From positions 1 through 45,924 of the forward strand of contig JAPWUP010000010.1 in assembly GCA_028275505.1 (NCBI GenBank): a stretch of DNA of 45,924 nt, in the 5' to 3' direction. Origin of the DNA: Bryobacteraceae bacterium. GTDB lineage: Bacteria; Acidobacteriota; Terriglobia; Bryobacterales; Bryobacteraceae. The notes under the pieces were generated by a model. The model saw only the letters and a list, made by a program, of their open reading frames with translations, made no database searches and had not been told where the DNA came from. The position numbers and the translations under genes were made by a program. Below, in pieces: positions 32,367 to 40,081 of this stretch (positions are counted from its first letter, which is position 1; each line of letters starts with the position of its first letter).

Positions 32367-33620
32367 TTATTCGTAGCGCAGGGCCACCACCGGGTCCAGC
32401 CGCGCCGCTTTCATCGCCGGCCAGACCCCGAAGAACAGGCCGACCATCACGGAGACACCGAAACCCGCGGCCACGGCCCACAGCGGCACTTGCGAGGGCA
32501 GCGAGGGCAGAAGCTTGCCAATGAGCAGGGTTACCGCCATCGCCAGCCCCAGTCCCACGATCCCGCCGCTGCCCGTCAACGCCACCGCCTCCAGCAGGAA
32601 CTGCGCCACGATGTCTTGCCTGCGGGCCCCGATGGCTTTGCGCACGCCGATCTCGCGCGTGCGCTCGGTGACCGACACGAGCATGATGTTCATGACGCCA
32701 ATGCCCCCCACCAGCAATCCCAGCCCCGAAATGGCGAGCGTAGCCAGCACGATGAGACGCGTCATGCTGTCGAATTGCTGCACGATGGAATCCGGGGTGG
32801 AAATGGCGAAATCGTTCGGCTCGCCCGGCGGTGTGCGGCGGATCCGGCGCAGGATGCCTTCCACTTCCTCGAACGCCGCCTGCCGCATTCCCGGGCGCGC
32901 TTTGGCCGTGATGAGGATGCGGTCCTGTTGCGGGTAGCGCAGCCGCGCCGTTTCGAAGGGGATGACGATCTCCTGGTCCTGGCGGTTGCGTCCGAAAAAG
33001 CCTCCCTTGGCTTTGGCGAATACTCCCAGGACCTCGAATTCGGCGCCGTCCACAATGATCTTGCTGCCCACGGCGTTGCCCGCCGGGAACAATACGGCTG
33101 CGATATCGGCCCCAAGCAGCGCCACACGCGCGCCCCGGTGTTCTTCTTCCGGCGTGAAGACGCGACCCGCAGCCAGTTCGCGCGGCGTGATCGAGAAATG
33201 ATTGGCCGTCACCCCGGTCAGATAAAGGCTGTCCGTTTCATAGCCTGGAACGCGCGCCGTCAGCGGCCTGCCGCGAAACACGGGCGGGACGTAAAGCGTC
33301 ACGCTGGCGTCCTGGACCGAGGGACACAGCCGCCGCAAGATGTCGGCATACTCGGGACGAATGGGTTTGCGCCTCTGTTCCTTGGGCGACGGGAACGACT
33401 CCTGCGGATCGCCGCTGGTCTTGTAGACGAAGATGTTGTCCGGTCCCTGTTCCTCGAAGAGCGTGACAATGCCCCGGCGCAATCCGGTCAGCAAGGAGGC
33501 TACCGTCACTACGGTGGTGATTCCGATGACGATGCCCAGGATGGTCAACGCCGACCGGAAGCGATGCGACCACACCGCTGCCAGGGCCATCCCCAGGTTT
33601 TCGCCCCAGCTCAGCCGCAT
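32367..33620 (-). CDS. FtsX/MacB-type ABC transporter permease (2)
   Basis: A 417-residue permease with a transmembrane helix at about 20-45, a large periplasmic MacB-PCD domain (about 50-270) and three C-terminal helices. The FtsX-family loop GVMNIMLVSVTERTREIGVRKAIGAR (split around 310-340) and the ending WPAMKAARLDPVVALRYE are characteristic. Together with the paralogue just upstream (33624-34892) it could form a heterodimeric MacB-like transporter that exports lipids, peptides or lipoproteins mechanically from the periplasm. No ATPase gene is adjacent on either side, so the ATP-binding subunit must be elsewhere. Confidence 0.92.
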   Translation of the reverse strand: MRLSWGENLGMALAAVWSHRFRSALTILGIVIGITTVVTVASLLTGLRRGIVTLFEEQGPDNIFVYKTSGDPQESFPSPKEQRRKPIRPEYADILRRLCPSVQDASVTLYVPPVFRGRPLTARVPGYETDSLYLTGVTANHFSITPRELAAGRVFTPEEEHRGARVALLGADIAAVLFPAGNAVGSKIIVDGAEFEVLGVFAKAKGGFFGRNRQDQEIVIPFETARLRYPQQDRILITAKARPGMRQAAFEEVEGILRRIRRTPPGEPNDFAISTPDSIVQQFDSMTRLIVLATLAISGLGLLVGGIGVMNIMLVSVTERTREIGVRKAIGARRQDIVAQFLLEAVALTGSGGIVGLGLAMAVTLLIGKLLPSLPSQVPLWAVAAGFGVSVMVGLFFGVWPAMKAARLDPVVALRYE

Positions 33621-33623
33621 CGC

Positions 33624-34892
33624 TTACTCCTGACGCAGCGCCACCACCGGATCCAGGCGTGCTGCACGCACCGCCGGATACCAGCCCGCAGCGATGCCGA
33701 CCGCGCCTGACACCAGCAACGCCAGCGCGGCGTATTGCCAGGTTACCGGAAGCGTGGTCCCCAGAATCTGTTCCAAGGCTCGTGCTCCCGCCACCCCCAG
33801 CCCCAGGCCCACGGCACCGCCCAGGCTGGTCAGTAGCACGGCTTCCAGCAGGAACTGCAACCGGATGTCGAACGGGCGGGCGCCCACGGACTTGCGGATG
33901 CCGATCTCGTGGGTGCGCTCGGTCACCGACACTAACATGATGTTCATCACCACGATGCCGCCGACCACCAGCGAGATCGAGGTGAGCGGCACGGCGACGG
34001 ACGAAATCATGGCCAGAATGTTCTGGGTCCAGGTGCGCACCGCCTCCGGCGTCAAGGTGTCGAAACGATCCGGCTGATTGGGTCGCAGGCGAAACCGGGC
34101 CCGCAGCGCTGCGCGCGTCACGTCCAGGGCTTCGTCCAAACTGAGCCCCAGGCCCGCCCGGGCCCGCGCGAACAGCGTGATCGAGTTCGGCGTTCCGAAC
34201 ATGCGGCGGTAGACCGTAACGGGGATGAACACCGCGTTGTCGCGCAGGCCGCCCATCACGTTGCCCAGCTTTTCCTGCACGCCCACCACCGTGAAGTCAA
34301 CGCCCTGGATCTTGATCTTCCGGCCAATGGGCGAGCCTGTGGGGAACAGGGTCGTGCGCACGTCCTCGCCGATCACGGCGACGGCCTGGCGGTTGCGCTC
34401 CTCTTCAGGCGTGAAGAAACGACCCTCCGAGGTGCTCACATCGCGCAGGAAAGAAAGCGTCCACGAGACGCCCTGGACGAGACCGTCGTCAAAGATGCGG
34501 TTTTCCGCCTTGATCTCCGCGGGCCGCGACATGTAGGGGCTGTAAAGGATGCGATCGCCGGTAGTGGCTTCCAGGTACTTGAGATCTTCCCAGCGGATGG
34601 GCCGGTTCCGCTTGAGCTTGTCGTAGTACTCGCGGCGGCCCACGGCGCGCGCCACCTGCGCCACCAGGAAGGTCTCCGTACCGAACGTTTTGGCCGCGCT
34701 TTGTTCCGCGTAGACGCCGAGACCCTCCACAGCCGCCCCCACGATCACCACGCTGGCCACCCCAATGATGACACCCAGCAGCGTGAGGAAGCTCCGCAGC
34801 TTGTGGGCCCGGATGGATTCCGTCGCCAGCCGCAGCGCGGTCCAGACGATGTAGGCCGCTCGCACCCCGACGCCTGTATGCCGCACAAACAC
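33624..34892 (-). CDS. FtsX/MacB-type ABC transporter permease (1)
   Basis: A 422-residue paralogue of the next gene, with the same plan: one N-terminal helix (about 35-57, SFLTLLGVIIGVASVVIVGAA), a periplasmic domain, and three C-terminal helices with VVMNIMLVSVTERTHEIGIRKSVGAR and the terminal YPAVRAARLDPVVALRQE. The start is GTG 34892 or GTG 34886, both close behind GAGAGGGG. It is separated from its partner by 3 bases. MacB-type permeases are fused to or encoded with an ATPase; here it is missing from the locus. Confidence 0.92.
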   Translation of the reverse strand: MFVRHTGVGVRAAYIVWTALRLATESIRAHKLRSFLTLLGVIIGVASVVIVGAAVEGLGVYAEQSAAKTFGTETFLVAQVARAVGRREYYDKLKRNRPIRWEDLKYLEATTGDRILYSPYMSRPAEIKAENRIFDDGLVQGVSWTLSFLRDVSTSEGRFFTPEEERNRQAVAVIGEDVRTTLFPTGSPIGRKIKIQGVDFTVVGVQEKLGNVMGGLRDNAVFIPVTVYRRMFGTPNSITLFARARAGLGLSLDEALDVTRAALRARFRLRPNQPDRFDTLTPEAVRTWTQNILAMISSVAVPLTSISLVVGGIVVMNIMLVSVTERTHEIGIRKSVGARPFDIRLQFLLEAVLLTSLGGAVGLGLGVAGARALEQILGTTLPVTWQYAALALLVSGAVGIAAGWYPAVRAARLDPVVALRQE

Positions 34893-34953: not shown

Positions 34954-35751
34954 TCAGGCCGCGTCGCGCCCGGCTTGGTCCTGGCGGAAAACGATTCGCT
35001 CGCCCGGGTGGCCGCAGCCGCACAAGCGCCGCGTGAGATGGCCGCGCCAGGGGGTGGCCAGACGGATCATGGGGAACGCGAGGTCCGTGAGGGAGGTGAC
35101 GAGCAGCTTCGGGGTGGCATGCGGCCCACAGGCTTCGAAGATTGCAGCGTCTTCGACGGTGTGCAAGCCTGAGTGCGCTTCGCATTCCCACGCCAGCAGT
35201 TCCCCGTCAAAGCCGATGATTTGCTGGAAAACCGGCACGCGGAAGACCTCCCACAACCGGCCACGCTGTTCCTCGTCCAGGAGAGGTTGGTTCGGGCGCA
35301 CGAGCGCGAGCAAAGCATGCGTGGGGCCGGCAGACAGCAGGCCGTCGCGTCGGGCCTGCGCGAGCTGCTCTAACCTTTCGGGAGAACCGGCAACCACTTC
35401 GGGGCGGAAGCGGGCGAGGCCGTTGCGGAAGCCGTTCGGGAAGATCCGGACGCGCCACGAACTCTCGAAGCCCTCGGTGAGAACCGCGATGCGCGGTTTG
35501 CCGGGAAGCGGGTGGGTCAGGCGGGCCAACTCCGGCCGGCGTCCCAGTTGGCTCGCGAATCTCTCAGGCTGACGGAGGTAAAGATCAGGCTCGAGCACAG
35601 GCAATCGCGCCAGAATCTCCGCCTGCCCGCCGATGCCAAGGAGTTTTTCCGCAGAGTCAAGCGAGGCTGCTTCGAGCCACGGCCGGTAGTAGGACGTTCC
35701 CAGCGCAGCCGCCAGGAGCCGGCGAAAACGTGCCAGCCGCGCCGCTTGCAT
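34954..35751 (-). CDS. Degenerate PaaK/CapK-like (phenylacetate-CoA ligase family) protein without ATP loop
   Basis: A 265-residue protein that matches scattered parts of the PaaK/CapK adenylate-forming family (about 430 aa). The N-terminus (RLARFRRLLAAALGTSYYRP, then LARLPVLEPDLYLRQPERF) resembles the family start. The middle has EVVAGSPERLEQLAQ, then ECEAHSGLHTVEDAAIFE, and the end has LLVTSLTDLAFPMIRLATP and CGCGHPGERI, all family-like. Missing are the phosphate-binding SSGTTGKP loop, most of the N-terminal ATP domain between residues 75 and 95, and a clear YGxTE. Adenylation is therefore unlikely in the usual form. The frame is intact, so it may be a repurposed binding protein rather than a pseudogene. 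Confidence 0.6.
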   Translation of the reverse strand: MQAARLARFRRLLAAALGTSYYRPWLEAASLDSAEKLLGIGGQAEILARLPVLEPDLYLRQPERFASQLGRRPELARLTHPLPGKPRIAVLTEGFESSWRVRIFPNGFRNGLARFRPEVVAGSPERLEQLAQARRDGLLSAGPTHALLALVRPNQPLLDEEQRGRLWEVFRVPVFQQIIGFDGELLAWECEAHSGLHTVEDAAIFEACGPHATPKLLVTSLTDLAFPMIRLATPWRGHLTRRLCGCGHPGERIVFRQDQAGRDAA

Positions 35752-35815: not shown

Positions 35816-36505
35816 TCAGCCGGATGTGGATCCTGAACGACTTTCGGGCGTGGGCAACCGCATCAGACCGGAAGCCAGCGCCAGTTGGGTCAGACCCGCC
35901 ACGTTGTTGGCGCCGACCTTCTTCATCATGGTCTTGCGGTAGCTGCGCACGGTTTGCAGGCCCAGATCCAGGATCGCGGCGATCTCCTTGCTCGTCTTGC
36001 CCTCGGCCACCAGACGCAACACCTGCAACTCCCGGGGCGAAAGCACGTCCAGCACGGAAGAACCGGTGCGCGGCTCCAAGTCACCTCTCTGGATGCGCGC
36101 TTGCACGCGGCTGGCCACCTCCGGGCACAGATAGAATCCGCCCTTGGCGACCGTGCGCAGCGCGTCCAGCAGGTCCTCCGAGGTTGCGCTCTTGAGGACG
36201 AAGGCGCGAGCACCGGCCCGGATCGCCCCGACCACGGAACCATCGTCGTTGTACATGGAAAGAATCACGACTTTGGTCTCCGGGCAGTGCCGCGTGATCT
36301 CGGACGTGGCCTCGATGCCGTTGAGGCCCGGCAAGCCGATGTCCATGAGCACCATGTCGGGCCGGTTCTTCTTGCAGAACTGGACCGCGTCGGATCCCGT
36401 GTCCGCCTCGCCGATCACCTGGAATTCTTCCCGGCGCTCGAGCAACGACTTCAAGCCGTCGCGAAAGATCTTGTGATCGTCCACCAGAAGGATTGTGTAC
36501 GCCAT
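35816..36505 (-). CDS. NarL/LuxR-family response regulator
   Basis: A 229-residue regulator. The receiver domain carries D9/D10, phosphoacceptor D55 (VLMDIGLPG), S83 and K105. The LuxR helix-turn-helix (about 155-215) includes LSPRELQVLRLVAEG and SKEIAAILDLGLQTVRSYR. The Ser83 position holds Thr in many regulators. The frame is open well upstream, but the receiver begins at ATG 36505 and this is the start. It follows the sensorless kinase by 4 bases and is its partner. The short C-terminal tail (PTPESRSGSTSG) is disordered. Confidence 0.93.
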   Translation of the reverse strand: MAYTILLVDDHKIFRDGLKSLLERREEFQVIGEADTGSDAVQFCKKNRPDMVLMDIGLPGLNGIEATSEITRHCPETKVVILSMYNDDGSVVGAIRAGARAFVLKSATSEDLLDALRTVAKGGFYLCPEVASRVQARIQRGDLEPRTGSSVLDVLSPRELQVLRLVAEGKTSKEIAAILDLGLQTVRSYRKTMMKKVGANNVAGLTQLALASGLMRLPTPESRSGSTSG

Positions 36506-36509
36506 AGAA

Positions 36510-37229
36510 CTACCTTTTTCCGCCAGGCCTGGTCGGCCGCCGGGTCGCTGCCCGTTTTGGCTCGGACCGGGCGGCTGGCGGCGACCACCACGCTGAGACA
36601 ATTGTACCTTTTTCTGGTTCGCTCGCCAACCGGAATTCCAGCCCGGCCACCTGGGCCTCGTATCGCATGAGCCGGAGGCCGGGAGCGGCTGAACGCTCCA
36701 GGATCTGCGGGTAGTCAAAACCCCGGCCATTGTCGCGAACTTCCAGGCGGGCACGGTCAGCGCCGGCACTGGCCTGCAGGCTGATCTGACTGGCCCCGGA
36801 ATGACGGACGGCGTTATCCAGCGCCAGTTCCGCAATGCGGTACAAAGCCGCGGCCTGCAAGGTCTGGGCTTGGGGGTCGCCTTCGTAGCTCCAGTGAAGC
36901 TCGCCCGCGAAATTCCTCCCGTATCGTCGTATCAGCCGCTGCAGCGATGCCTGCAAACCCAGCCGCTCGACGATGGCGGGGTTTAACTCGTAGCTCAGCT
37001 CGCGAACTTGCTCCAGCGCGCCGGCCAGCAGCTTCTGCGTTCCGGCGATGCGTTCGGCCACGCCCGGCACGTCGCTCAGATCCATCCGGAGCAATTCCAG
37101 TTGCAGGCCCAGCGCGCTCAACACCTGTCCGACTTCATCGTGAAGCAAGCGCGCGATGCGCAGGCGTTCCTCCTCGCGAGCCTGCTTGAGGCAGGCCACC
37201 CAGTCCGTCCGCTTTGTCGCAGCTCCCAA
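36510..37229 (-). CDS. Soluble NarX-type histidine kinase without sensor domain
   Basis: A 239-residue minimal kinase made of just a HisKA_3 dimerisation box and an HATPase domain. H30 lies in RIARLLHDEVGQVLSAL, the N box reads ELALDNAVRHSGA and the G1 box VRDNGRGFD. There is no membrane segment or sensory domain, so the signal must come from a partner or the kinase is constitutively active. A basic tail (about 215-239) ends the protein. Start TTG 37229 is the only credible one; the frame upstream is out of the coding pattern. It lies 52 bases after the transketolase C-subunit gene and directly before its response regulator. Confidence 0.85.
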   Translation of the reverse strand: MGAATKRTDWVACLKQAREEERLRIARLLHDEVGQVLSALGLQLELLRMDLSDVPGVAERIAGTQKLLAGALEQVRELSYELNPAIVERLGLQASLQRLIRRYGRNFAGELHWSYEGDPQAQTLQAAALYRIAELALDNAVRHSGASQISLQASAGADRARLEVRDNGRGFDYPQILERSAAPGLRLMRYEAQVAGLEFRLASEPEKGTIVSAWWSPPAARSEPKRAATRRPTRPGGKR

Positions 37230-37281: not shown

Positions 37282-38253
37282 TCAACGGCCGCGTTTGCGA
37301 GCCAAGGCCCGCCGCGCGGCAGCGGCGATGTGCGGGGCCGTCAAGCCGTATTTTTCCAGCAACGCCTCGGGCGGTCCGGATTCCGCGTAGGTGTTCTGAA
37401 TACCTACGAACTCCATGACGCAGGGATGCAATTCGGCGACTGCCTGCGCAACGCGGACTCCCGTTCCGCAGTCCACCAGGTGCTCTTCCGCCACGACGAT
37501 GGCGCCCGTCTCGACCGCTGCCCGGCGGATGGCCTCCCGGTCCAGCGGCTTCACCGTGTGCAGATCCAGCACGCGGGCCGATATGCCTTCCGCATCCAGA
37601 ATTTCCGCCGCGCGAATGCATTCAGCCACCATCAGTCCGTTGGCGATCAGAGTCACATCGTCGCCGTCGAGCAACTGGATGGCCTTGCCGATCTCGAAGC
37701 GCTGGTCCGGCGAATATACGATCGGCACGCGCGGACGCCCGGTGCGGATGAAGACCGGGCCGACGTGCTCCGCGGCGGCGCGCACCAGCGCCCGCGTGGC
37801 CACCTCGTCAGCGGGCGCCAGCACCACGAACCCGGGCAGCGAGCAGGCCAGGCTGATTTCTTCCACACTCATCTGCGACGGGCCGTCCTCGCCGATCGAG
37901 ATCCCGCTGTGCGTGCCCACGATCTTCACATTCAGACCGGGGTAGGCCACCGCTACCCGCAATTGCTCGAAAGCCTTGTTGAGCAAGAAACAGGAGAAGC
38001 TGGCGGCAAACGGGATCTTGCCGTGGCTGGCCAGCCCGGCGGCTACCCCTACCATGTTGGCCTCGGCAATCCCGCAAGAGACGAACCGCTCGGGGAACTC
38101 CTTGGCGAACAGGTGGGTGAAGGTGGACTTGGAGAGGTCCGCGTCCACCGCCATGATGTCGGGATTCTCGCGCCCCAGTTCCACCAGGGCGCGCCCGAAC
38201 GCCTCGCGCGTGGCCATACCCAGCTTCAGTTCGTAACGCGTCTTCAACGCCAT
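37282..38253 (-). CDS. Transketolase, C-terminal subunit (split type)
   Basis: A 323-residue protein equal to the pyrimidine-binding and C-terminal domains of transketolase. The catalytic glutamate E64 is in CGIAEANMVGVAAG, and THSGISIGEDGPSQM and LDLHTVKPLD are recognisable. It cannot work alone because the ThDP diphosphate and magnesium site is in the N-terminal subunit encoded just upstream. The ATG at 38253 overlaps the stop of the N-subunit by one base (TGATG), ensuring equal synthesis. Split transketolases are common in Acidobacteria, Firmicutes and archaea. Confidence 0.95.
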   Translation of the reverse strand: MALKTRYELKLGMATREAFGRALVELGRENPDIMAVDADLSKSTFTHLFAKEFPERFVSCGIAEANMVGVAAGLASHGKIPFAASFSCFLLNKAFEQLRVAVAYPGLNVKIVGTHSGISIGEDGPSQMSVEEISLACSLPGFVVLAPADEVATRALVRAAAEHVGPVFIRTGRPRVPIVYSPDQRFEIGKAIQLLDGDDVTLIANGLMVAECIRAAEILDAEGISARVLDLHTVKPLDREAIRRAAVETGAIVVAEEHLVDCGTGVRVAQAVAELHPCVMEFVGIQNTYAESGPPEALLEKYGLTAPHIAAAARRALARKRGR

Positions 38254-39083
38254 CAGGCCAGCTCCTTCAAGGCGAGTTCGACTTCTTCCGGCGTGGGAGC
38301 CACGCCATGGAACTTGGGGTTGTTCTCCATGAAGGACACCCCTTTGCCCTTGACCGTATGAGCTATGATCACGGTCGGCTTGCCGCGCACCTCGCGGGCC
38401 AGAGTGAAAGCTGCGAACAGAGCGGGGAAGGAGTGCCCATCCACCTCCAGAACGTGCCAGCCGAAGGCCTGCCACTTGGCCACCAGCGGCTCTACCTCCA
38501 TGACGTCCTTGATGAAGCCATCCAACTGCATCTTGTTGTAGTCCACGATGGCGGTCACGTTGTCAATCTTGTGGTAAGCGCCGAACATGGCCGCTTCCCA
38601 GATCTGACCTTCCTGGATCTCGCCATCGCCCAGCAGCACGTAGGTGCGCGACGGGTTGCCGTTGAGGCGAGCCGCAAATCCCATGCCCATGGCGATCGAA
38701 AGTCCCTGTCCCAGGGAGCCGGTCGAAGCCTCGAGCACAGGCAGGAACCGCTTGTCCGGATGTCCCTGATAGGGCGAACCGAGCTTGCGCAGAGTTTTCA
38801 GCAATTCGCGCGGCGCGGCTTCGTAACCGCATTCAGCCAGCACGGCATACAGTGCAGGAGCGCCGTGCCCTTTGGACAAAATGAAGCGGTCCCGTTCCGG
38901 CCAGTCCGGGCGCTTGGGATCGTGCCGGAGCACGCCTCCGAAGAACAGCGTGACCAGAATTTCCACCGCGGAGAGCGAACCGCCCGGGTGCCCGGACTTG
39001 GCCGCACCCGTCATTTCGACAATATGACGCCGGATTTGTTTGGCGATGGCCTGGAGTTCTTCCAAGCTGCGTGTGGGTTGCAT
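38253..39083 (-). CDS. Transketolase, N-terminal subunit (split type)
   Basis: A 276-residue protein that forms the ThDP-binding half of a split transketolase. Signatures: SGHPGGSLSAVEIL, SKGHGAPALYA, ASTGSLGQGLSIAMGMG and the ThDP/Mg motif GDGEIQEGQ ending with DYNK. TVKGKGVSFMEN near the C-terminus is also typical. The usual GSLGQG is intact here, unlike the enzyme at 497-2764. The start is ATG 39083. Linked to the C-subunit gene by a one-base stop/start overlap. Role in the non-oxidative pentose phosphate pathway is expected. Confidence 0.95.
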   Translation of the reverse strand: MQPTRSLEELQAIAKQIRRHIVEMTGAAKSGHPGGSLSAVEILVTLFFGGVLRHDPKRPDWPERDRFILSKGHGAPALYAVLAECGYEAAPRELLKTLRKLGSPYQGHPDKRFLPVLEASTGSLGQGLSIAMGMGFAARLNGNPSRTYVLLGDGEIQEGQIWEAAMFGAYHKIDNVTAIVDYNKMQLDGFIKDVMEVEPLVAKWQAFGWHVLEVDGHSFPALFAAFTLAREVRGKPTVIIAHTVKGKGVSFMENNPKFHGVAPTPEEVELALKELA

Positions 39084-39136
39084 AAGCCGACAAGATCTAC
39101 ACTTTAACACAGGGCGGCGGGCCGGACGCAGCTCGC

Positions 39137-40081
39137 TCAGATGTGAAACTCCAGAATGTCCTGATCCTGCACGACGTAGGTCCGCTCCACCATGATGCCG
39201 TCGCGGTCCCCGTCCAGCCGGTAGAGGCGCGCGAACTTCAGTTTTTCGGCGAAATCCTTGTGCACCATGCGCGCCACGTCCACCACGGTGTCGCCGCGAC
39301 GGGCTACGAAAGGCGCCGTGAGATCGGGCTTTTTGCCCGGGGCTTTGGTGTAAACGCGGACCAGCTCCAGGCCCTCGAACACGGCGCGGGCGAAACGATC
39401 CAGCCCCTCGCCCGTCTGCGCAGAGATCAGCAGGCACCGATAGCGCTCGCCGAACAGATCTTCCAGCGCCTGGAAGTTTTCGCGCGCGCCAGGCAAGTCT
39501 CCCTTGTTGGCCACCAGCAAGCTCGGGCGGCGCACGCGCCACGCGTCCAGTCGCTGCTCGATGTATTCGATCTGCTCGAGCACCGCCGGCTCGTTCACGT
39601 CCACCATGAGCACGCCCAGATTGGCGTAGCGCAGCACCTGGGGCAGCCAGGGCTCGGTGAACTCGGGCGCAATCGGCGGCAGATCCACGAGCTGGATCTG
39701 CACGTCCTCGAAGTTCATCATCCCGGGCAGGGGAATCCTTGTCGTGAAGGGATAATCGGCCACCTCGGGCCGGGCGTTGGTGAGGCGGGCGAGCAACTGG
39801 GACTTGCCGGCGTTGGGCGGTCCGATCAAGACCACTTGGCCGGCGCCCTCGCGTTCTACTTGGTAGAACGGGGTCGCGTGCGCCCCGCCCTTCTTCTGCT
39901 GGGCTTCCTTGCGGGTCTGCGACAGTCGCCGCTTGATGTCGGCCTGGAGCTTTTCCGTCCCCTTGTGCTTGGGGATGGTGGCCAGCATCCGCTCCAGGGC
40001 GGCGATCTTCTCGGCCGGGGTTTTTGCTTCGCGATATTGCTGTTCAGCCTCGAGGTATTCCGGGCTCAGGTTGGCCGGCAT
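39137..40081 (-). CDS. DRG/Obg-like GTPase with TGS domain
   Basis: A 314-residue translation-type GTPase of the Obg/DRG class. A helical N-terminal segment (about 1-70) precedes the G domain: G1 is GPPNAGKS (87-94), G3 is D133-L-P-P136 rather than D-x-x-G, and G4 is NKGD (192-195). A C-terminal TGS domain (about 240-313) ends YVVQDQDILEFHI, strikingly like the end of the YchF-like protein at 26193-27263. GAGAGGG lies before the ATG. The lack of the G3 glycine suggests an altered switch II. Ribosome or RNA binding is likely by family; exact target unknown. Confidence 0.85.
   Translation of the reverse strand: MPANLSPEYLEAEQQYREAKTPAEKIAALERMLATIPKHKGTEKLQADIKRRLSQTRKEAQQKKGGAHATPFYQVEREGAGQVVLIGPPNAGKSQLLARLTNARPEVADYPFTTRIPLPGMMNFEDVQIQLVDLPPIAPEFTEPWLPQVLRYANLGVLMVDVNEPAVLEQIEYIEQRLDAWRVRRPSLLVANKGDLPGARENFQALEDLFGERYRCLLISAQTGEGLDRFARAVFEGLELVRVYTKAPGKKPDLTAPFVARRGDTVVDVARMVHKDFAEKLKFARLYRLDGDRDGIMVERTYVVQDQDILEFHI

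Follow-up and report, generated by a model that had tools for sequence, protein, structure and literature searches.

A short PaaK-type protein without its ATP site is conserved across the Bryobacteraceae and probably keeps a structural zinc site

Results

The short gene and its place in the window

The window, a stretch of 45,924 nucleotides from a Bryobacteraceae genome, carries at 34954-35751 of the minus strand an intact frame of 265 codons that, by ORF reading, opens with ATG and contains no internal stop. Close 5' of this ATG lies AAGGGAAGG, read by eye. The first-pass annotation had described a PaaK-like protein of about 265 instead of 430 residues, missing its ATP loop in an otherwise unbroken frame. 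The frame is indeed open, the family segments quoted there are all found in the protein, and the difference in size fits, with all but one of 22 full-length paralogues spanning 409-480 residues from their chosen starts. On the upstream side, a NarL-type regulator frame is separated from the ATG by 64 bases; farther upstream lie a sensor kinase and an ORF pair that, naming it from the sequence, we take to be a transketolase (Table 1).

Table 1. The short gene, its parts, and neighbouring genes in the window
Feature	Position	Strand	Basis
Gene for the short PaaK-like protein (265 aa, unbroken frame)	34954..35751	-	ORF reading
N-terminal helices (residues 1-66), corresponding to the start of PaaK (SYYRP, LARLPVLEP)	35554..35751	-	Model and profile
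Residues 66-115, shortened stretch; about 54 residues including the A3 ATP loop missing	35407..35556	-	50 vs 104 residues, medians
Residues 155-200, best-conserved core (W167, P173, ELLAWECEAHxGLH); A5 YGxxE replaced	35152..35289	-	Alignment
Predicted zinc ligands C190 and H197, at the positions of NatL2 Cys248 and His254	35161..35184	-	Motif match; NatL2 ligands from PMC7204872 (excerpt)
Predicted zinc ligands C244 and C246 in CGCG, at the positions of NatL2 Cys308 and Cys310	35014..35022	-	Motif match; NatL2 ligands from PMC7204872 (excerpt)
NarL-type response regulator, directly upstream of the short gene; in the recurring row	35816..36505	-	
HisKA_3 histidine kinase; in the recurring row	36510..37229	-	Domain search
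Presumed two-piece transketolase, ORFs 37282-38475 and 38253-39542, starts unsettled; in the recurring row	37282..39542	-	
Two MacB/FtsX-type permeases downstream of the short gene; elsewhere no recurring neighbour	32367..34892	-	

The short form has lost the elements of adenylation

Including the window, 114 short entries were collected, two of which appear to be pieces of one G036 gene at contig ends. Nine entries, lying at contig edges or broken (L054, L061, L082, L165, L175, L190, L199, L201, and L210), were left out, giving a set of 105 complete short members that we compared with the 22 full-length paralogues; L211 was counted as full-length, and L144 was dropped because it gave no profile match. 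Lengths were compared in an alignment of 42 long-form short members with 21 full-length paralogues, the latter from the window's family and from other relatives. The stretch corresponding to window residues 66-115 has a median of 50 residues in the short form versus 104 in the full-length form, and the part after residue 254 a median of 19 versus 108. Read from these sequences, two parts are lost, the A3 region and a C-terminal domain of about 90 residues. The missing ATP loop and its surroundings, about 54 residues around A3, had been recognized before, whereas the loss of the C-terminal domain is additional and had not been named.

The A3 phosphate-binding loop is found in 21 of the 22 full-length paralogues, with the 22nd showing it when given a longer start, and in none of the 105 short members, including when their whole stop-to-stop frames are read. 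The A5 motif YGxxE (pattern YG..E) follows the same division (0/105 versus 21/22), as do the A7 motif Y..GD, whose Asp holds the ribose (0/105 versus 22/22), and the adenine clamp, sought with one pattern in both sets (0/105 versus 17/22). The A10 lysine is absent from the short form together with the C-terminal domain. The roles of A3, A5, A7, and A10 are described in an excerpt of PMC8388817, and reasoning of the A3-A5 type derives from working enzymes (PMC8388817, excerpt). In one acetyl-CoA synthetase, replacement of the A7 aspartate left no detectable activity (PMC3438747, excerpt). These motif losses argue that adenylation has been lost and that the short proteins almost certainly cannot adenylate.

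A PaaK-type fold is predicted for the short form

Neither the window protein nor any of 21 aligned short members matches a Pfam model at E 0.01. Single-sequence searches with the window protein returned weak matches, to the NCBIfam model DVU1553_fam_AMP (6.3e-7, over the second half) and, in the PDB, to 9s3l (0.0042) and 4r1l (0.021). A 21-row profile reached 4r1l (BT_0428) at 2.6e-8, with an additional faint N-terminal match. An AlphaFold2 model of the window protein from the 21-row alignment (pLDDT 90.6, pTM 0.88) superposes on BT_0428 (4r1l_D) with a Z score of 19.6 and an rmsd of 4.0 over 256 residues, and on PaaK1 (2y4n_A) with a Z score of 19.0 over 253 residues. The ligases NatL2, AjiA1, and ClxA match at Z 17.6-18.6, and the next kind of entry after the PaaK type is a phenazine biosynthesis protein at Z 12.3. 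Since the matches to BT_0428 and PaaK1, the latter a comparison that the first-pass annotation had proposed, stand well above this value, we consider kinship with PaaK settled: on the evidence of the model, the short protein is a descendant of a PaaK-type ligase. It shares with these phenylacetate/aryl-CoA ligases the fold over 253-256 residues, comprising the N-terminal part and the central sheet, but is without their A3 loop, A5 YGxxE, A7 Asp, and C-terminal domain.

A much smaller member of 187 residues is likewise predicted to adopt the PaaK core fold (pLDDT 85.5), with its best match at Z 11.0 (ClxA) and the first match outside the PaaK type at Z 8.9. In a viral structure library, just two acyl-CoA synthetases were matched at E below 0.001.

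Retained zinc-ligand residues and a new conserved face

The residues corresponding to the zinc ligands, C-H-C-C (pattern C..H..CxC), are present in 104 of the 105 short members and in all 22 full-length paralogues; the sole short exception, L230, is missing the first zinc Cys. In NatL2, four such residues bind a zinc more than 20 Å from AMP, which the authors call structural (PMC7204872, excerpt). By analogy, and given the retained ligand residues, the short protein probably binds zinc as a structural brace. The wider EC...H...CxCG segment occurs in 22/22 full-length paralogues, as do E189, C190, and H197 together; among the short members, E189 is conserved in 102/105 and H193 is replaced by R or Q in 22/105.

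In addition to these inherited residues, there is conservation peculiar to the short form. W167 is found in 103/105 short members versus 0/22 full-length paralogues, P173 in 104/105 short members, and Q177 in 81/105. Because 49 of the 105 dispense with the N-terminal domain and nearly all keep the core, a function shared by the family is to be expected in the W167-to-CxC core.

Spread, length, and selection in the family

At E 1e-10, the profile matches 114 of 150 sampled Bryobacteraceae genomes. After the loci were read, 113 of the 150 hold a short-type match; one genome (G018) has a full-length match only and 36 further genomes have no match, so that 37/150 show no short member. This search for equally short homologues, also proposed with the first-pass annotation, thus identifies a conserved family: instead of full-length homologues only in close relatives, which would have marked the window copy as a recent deletion, the short form is the rule. 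Outside the family, 10 non-family genomes among 200 of the class match at E 1e-12, with frames of 298-541 aa. Five of the matching loci were read: three of the frames measure 405-458 aa, and the remaining two, the shortest, belong to full-length proteins that are truncated at a contig end or contain unread bases. No short member occurs among the non-family places read, in a search that weaker or very short relatives could escape.

The 105 short members are 143-324 aa long, with a median of 243, apart from one longer member of 407 with an unsettled start. The profile match begins before position 30 in 47/105, which keep the N-terminal part, and at position 70 or later in the 49/105 where the N-terminal helical domain is absent. 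In 36 of these 49, an upstream gene of the recurring row described below has been identified, and its end lies no more than 200 bases away in 32, so that in these members the absence of the N-terminus does not come from a misplaced gene call.

Values of dN/dS range from 0.06 to 0.35 in 28 near pairs with finite dS, or 25 after removal of three repeats (L213 and L044 are one gene); two more pairs are saturated, and a few rows are contig-edge pieces. By this sequence measure, the short gene is held by purifying selection. In genome G145, the short-type match contains stops. Two quick, unrooted trees on 158 columns, built from about every second short member (57 and 54) and the 22 full-length paralogues, contain one branch that splits short from full-length (SH-aLRT 96 and 81). 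In the first of these trees, some of the smallest members (L079, L202, L204, L206, L208, and L212) cluster with the window's own genus (SH-aLRT 99); L079, L202, L206, and L208 measure 144-177 aa, and that tree does not include other small members.

One full-length protein stands apart in its signature. L244 (G128 C4), a 422-aa frame with A3, A5, and A7 present, nevertheless shows the signature that marks the short proteins, AWECEAHxGFH, and its genome holds a short member as well. We rejected L244 as a missing link, as its profile score of 61.0 bits ranks 16th of the 22, no nearer to the short group.

Gene neighbourhood

The short gene is often the last of a recurring row that comprises the N and C parts of a transketolase, a HisKA_3 kinase, a NarL-type regulator, and an Amidohydro_2 protein. 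Across 82 loci whose upstream sequence extends for 4.5 kb or more (L109-L112, L082, L199, and L210 left out), the amidohydrolase is found upstream in 46, the regulator in 48, the kinase in 32, and each transketolase half in 35; any row gene is present in 57/82 and none of the five in 25/82. The amidohydrolase ends at most 400 bases away in 43/82 loci, and the regulator is so placed in 8 more. In the window, the row is present without the amidohydrolase, none being found in this genome at E 1e-25. The order of the row alone is no proof of joint function, because in L127-L130, from four genomes of the family that have no short member, the transketolase and the amidohydrolase stand in the same order, with the regulator in three and a kinase match in two.

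Of 37 genomes from the family and the order, 28 encode the Amidohydro_2 protein. Six of the nine genomes without it at E 1e-25 still carry the short gene (G000, G001, G002, G015, G016, and G020), and in 14/14 relatives sampled from outside the family the amidohydrolase is present and a short gene absent. We therefore rejected an obligatory partnership, as either gene occurs without the other across genomes. The amidohydrolase itself (L035:3883-4794 and relatives), of about 304 aa, has no NCBIfam name and no PDB relative by sequence at 1e-5. The window kinase (36510-37229) matches kinase domains alone; the kinase at the same place in L206 has a longer N-terminal part that is PAS-like by eye.

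The two FtsX-type permeases that the first-pass annotation placed beside the gene do lie downstream in the window, but the arrangement does not recur. Among 94 loci with 2 kb or more of downstream sequence, a same-strand permease match starting within 2 kb is found in two (the window and L203), and a link to FtsX was rejected; other permease matches are on the opposite strand (L195 and L202) or upstream (L076). No downstream partner recurs beyond a handful of loci. Likewise, 30 row-less loci with at least 1.5 kb upstream have no common neighbour, the maximum of 4/30 being reached by a divergent gene resembling nadD and by a sensor kinase, both named by eye. A search of the gene's own strand up to 1.5 kb away for an A3-like motif gave 0/105 loci, the full 1.5 kb being available upstream in 91 and downstream in 94. 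PADLOC returned no defence-system match for the three proteins submitted, and a promoter and terminator scan gave signals no higher than those of shuffled sequences.

Discussion

Our main reading, to which we assign a probability of about 0.5, is that the short protein is a lineage-specific, non-adenylating, zinc-braced pseudo-ligase that works through protein contacts. In a PaaK/CapK-type acyl-adenylating ancestor, the ATP site and the mobile C-terminal domain would have disappeared before the Bryobacteraceae began to diversify or soon after, and the remnant would be a small alpha/beta unit under purifying selection that carries the residues of the ancestral structural zinc site. The conserved face from W167 to H197 could then be presented to a partner protein, with the short protein acting as an adaptor or allosteric subunit; the amidohydrolase, the NarL-type regulator, and the sensor kinase of the same row would be the first candidates. 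A more detailed form of this proposal, in which a ligase was converted stepwise into an interaction module that is anchored by zinc and as small as about 145 residues, and in which W167, P173, and Q177 form a new face serving a partner, seems to us to have a little less than an even chance.

The first-pass annotation had suggested a repurposed fold that may bind an acyl or aryl group without activating it. A PaaK fold without its ATP loop, put to a changed use, agrees with our results. That the ancestral pocket still takes up an acyl or aryl acid, making the protein a carrier or sensor, we regard as quite unlikely: the fold is retained and the N-terminal part is kept in 47/105, but the A5 stretch, which in NatL2 (Glu235 to Thr239) also seats the aryl ring (PMC7204872, excerpt), is replaced in 105/105, leaving such binding unsupported, and the N-terminal part is absent from 49/105. 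A ligand of another kind may still be bound. Another proposal, of low probability in our view, is a different metalloenzyme in which E189, E191, H193, and a metal take part in catalysis, perhaps with the amidohydrolase product as substrate. The conservation of these residues, with E189 in 102/105, leaves chemistry possible, and the two-enzyme route of NatL2 and NatAM offers a remote parallel (PMC7204872, excerpt). However, H193 is R or Q in 22/105, the amidohydrolase is frequently absent, and E189, C190, and H197 occur in 22/22 paralogues that carry ATP motifs and in which, to judge from NatL2, these residues form part of a structural zinc site. That the short protein is half of a split ligase, its ATP-binding half being encoded elsewhere, would account for the missing parts being those that hold ATP. 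We consider this highly improbable, since the A5 and A7 residues of the kept part are gone too, no A3-like motif lies within 1.5 kb on the gene's strand at any of the 105 loci, and both halves are present in each of the two full-length paralogues of the window's genome.

A sensory or regulatory partnership with the neighbouring histidine kinase and NarL-type regulator appears rather unlikely, even though the regulator is upstream in 48/82 loci and the kinase in 32/82, and the window regulator lies 64 bases from the ATG beside a kinase that matches kinase domains only. No regulator is found upstream in the other 34/82 loci, L127-L130 keep row genes without a short member, and common descent alone can preserve a gene order. 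The spread in length from 143 to 324 aa, the one longer row, and the stops in the G145 match might suggest a decaying pseudogene or a recent deletion; the chance of this is close to nil, the idea being refuted by 105 open frames, presence across the family, and dN/dS of 0.06-0.35.

The fold and the zinc site are already known, and in the open-licence literature we found no description of an ATP-less short PaaK form conserved throughout a family. Such short proteins risk annotation as CoA ligases although they are probably unable to act as such. If our reading is correct, the family offers about 100 natural forms on the way from an ATP-using enzyme to a non-catalytic protein, almost all of them with one zinc core, and these would make up a naturally occurring series of intermediates leading to a pseudoenzyme; why a dead enzyme is retained would then become approachable through the partner of the shared core.

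Among known systems, NatL2 resembles the short form in its C-H-C-C zinc-ligand residues and in being a PaaK-type protein next to an amidohydrolase gene. It requires ATP, however, and the residues with which it holds ATP and the aryl group are not retained in the short form; the structure of its partner amidohydrolase NatAM covers about 493 residues (PMC7204872, excerpt), compared with 304 aa for the amidohydrolase here. The full-length CapK-like paralogues of the family (e.g., G000 C35 and C96) share the EC...H...CxCG segment but have open frames of 422-623 aa with ATP motifs present. The nearest curated model is NCBIfam NF045666 (DVU_1553), whose 331 positions end near CxCG; to judge from this length, its family may also lack the C-terminal domain. 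The window protein matches only positions 178-324 of the model, at 28.8 bits, and does not reach the cut-off of 300. EhpF is an ANL protein without the mobile domain, and an ANL-fold protein of the kinetoplastid mitoribosome has a non-catalytic role. The latter ANL-like protein (7aih_Ai and 6hix_BC) matches the 187-aa member at Z 8.6 and 8.2, modest values from an unrelated setting, and is a possible parallel for a ligase fold built into a larger assembly.
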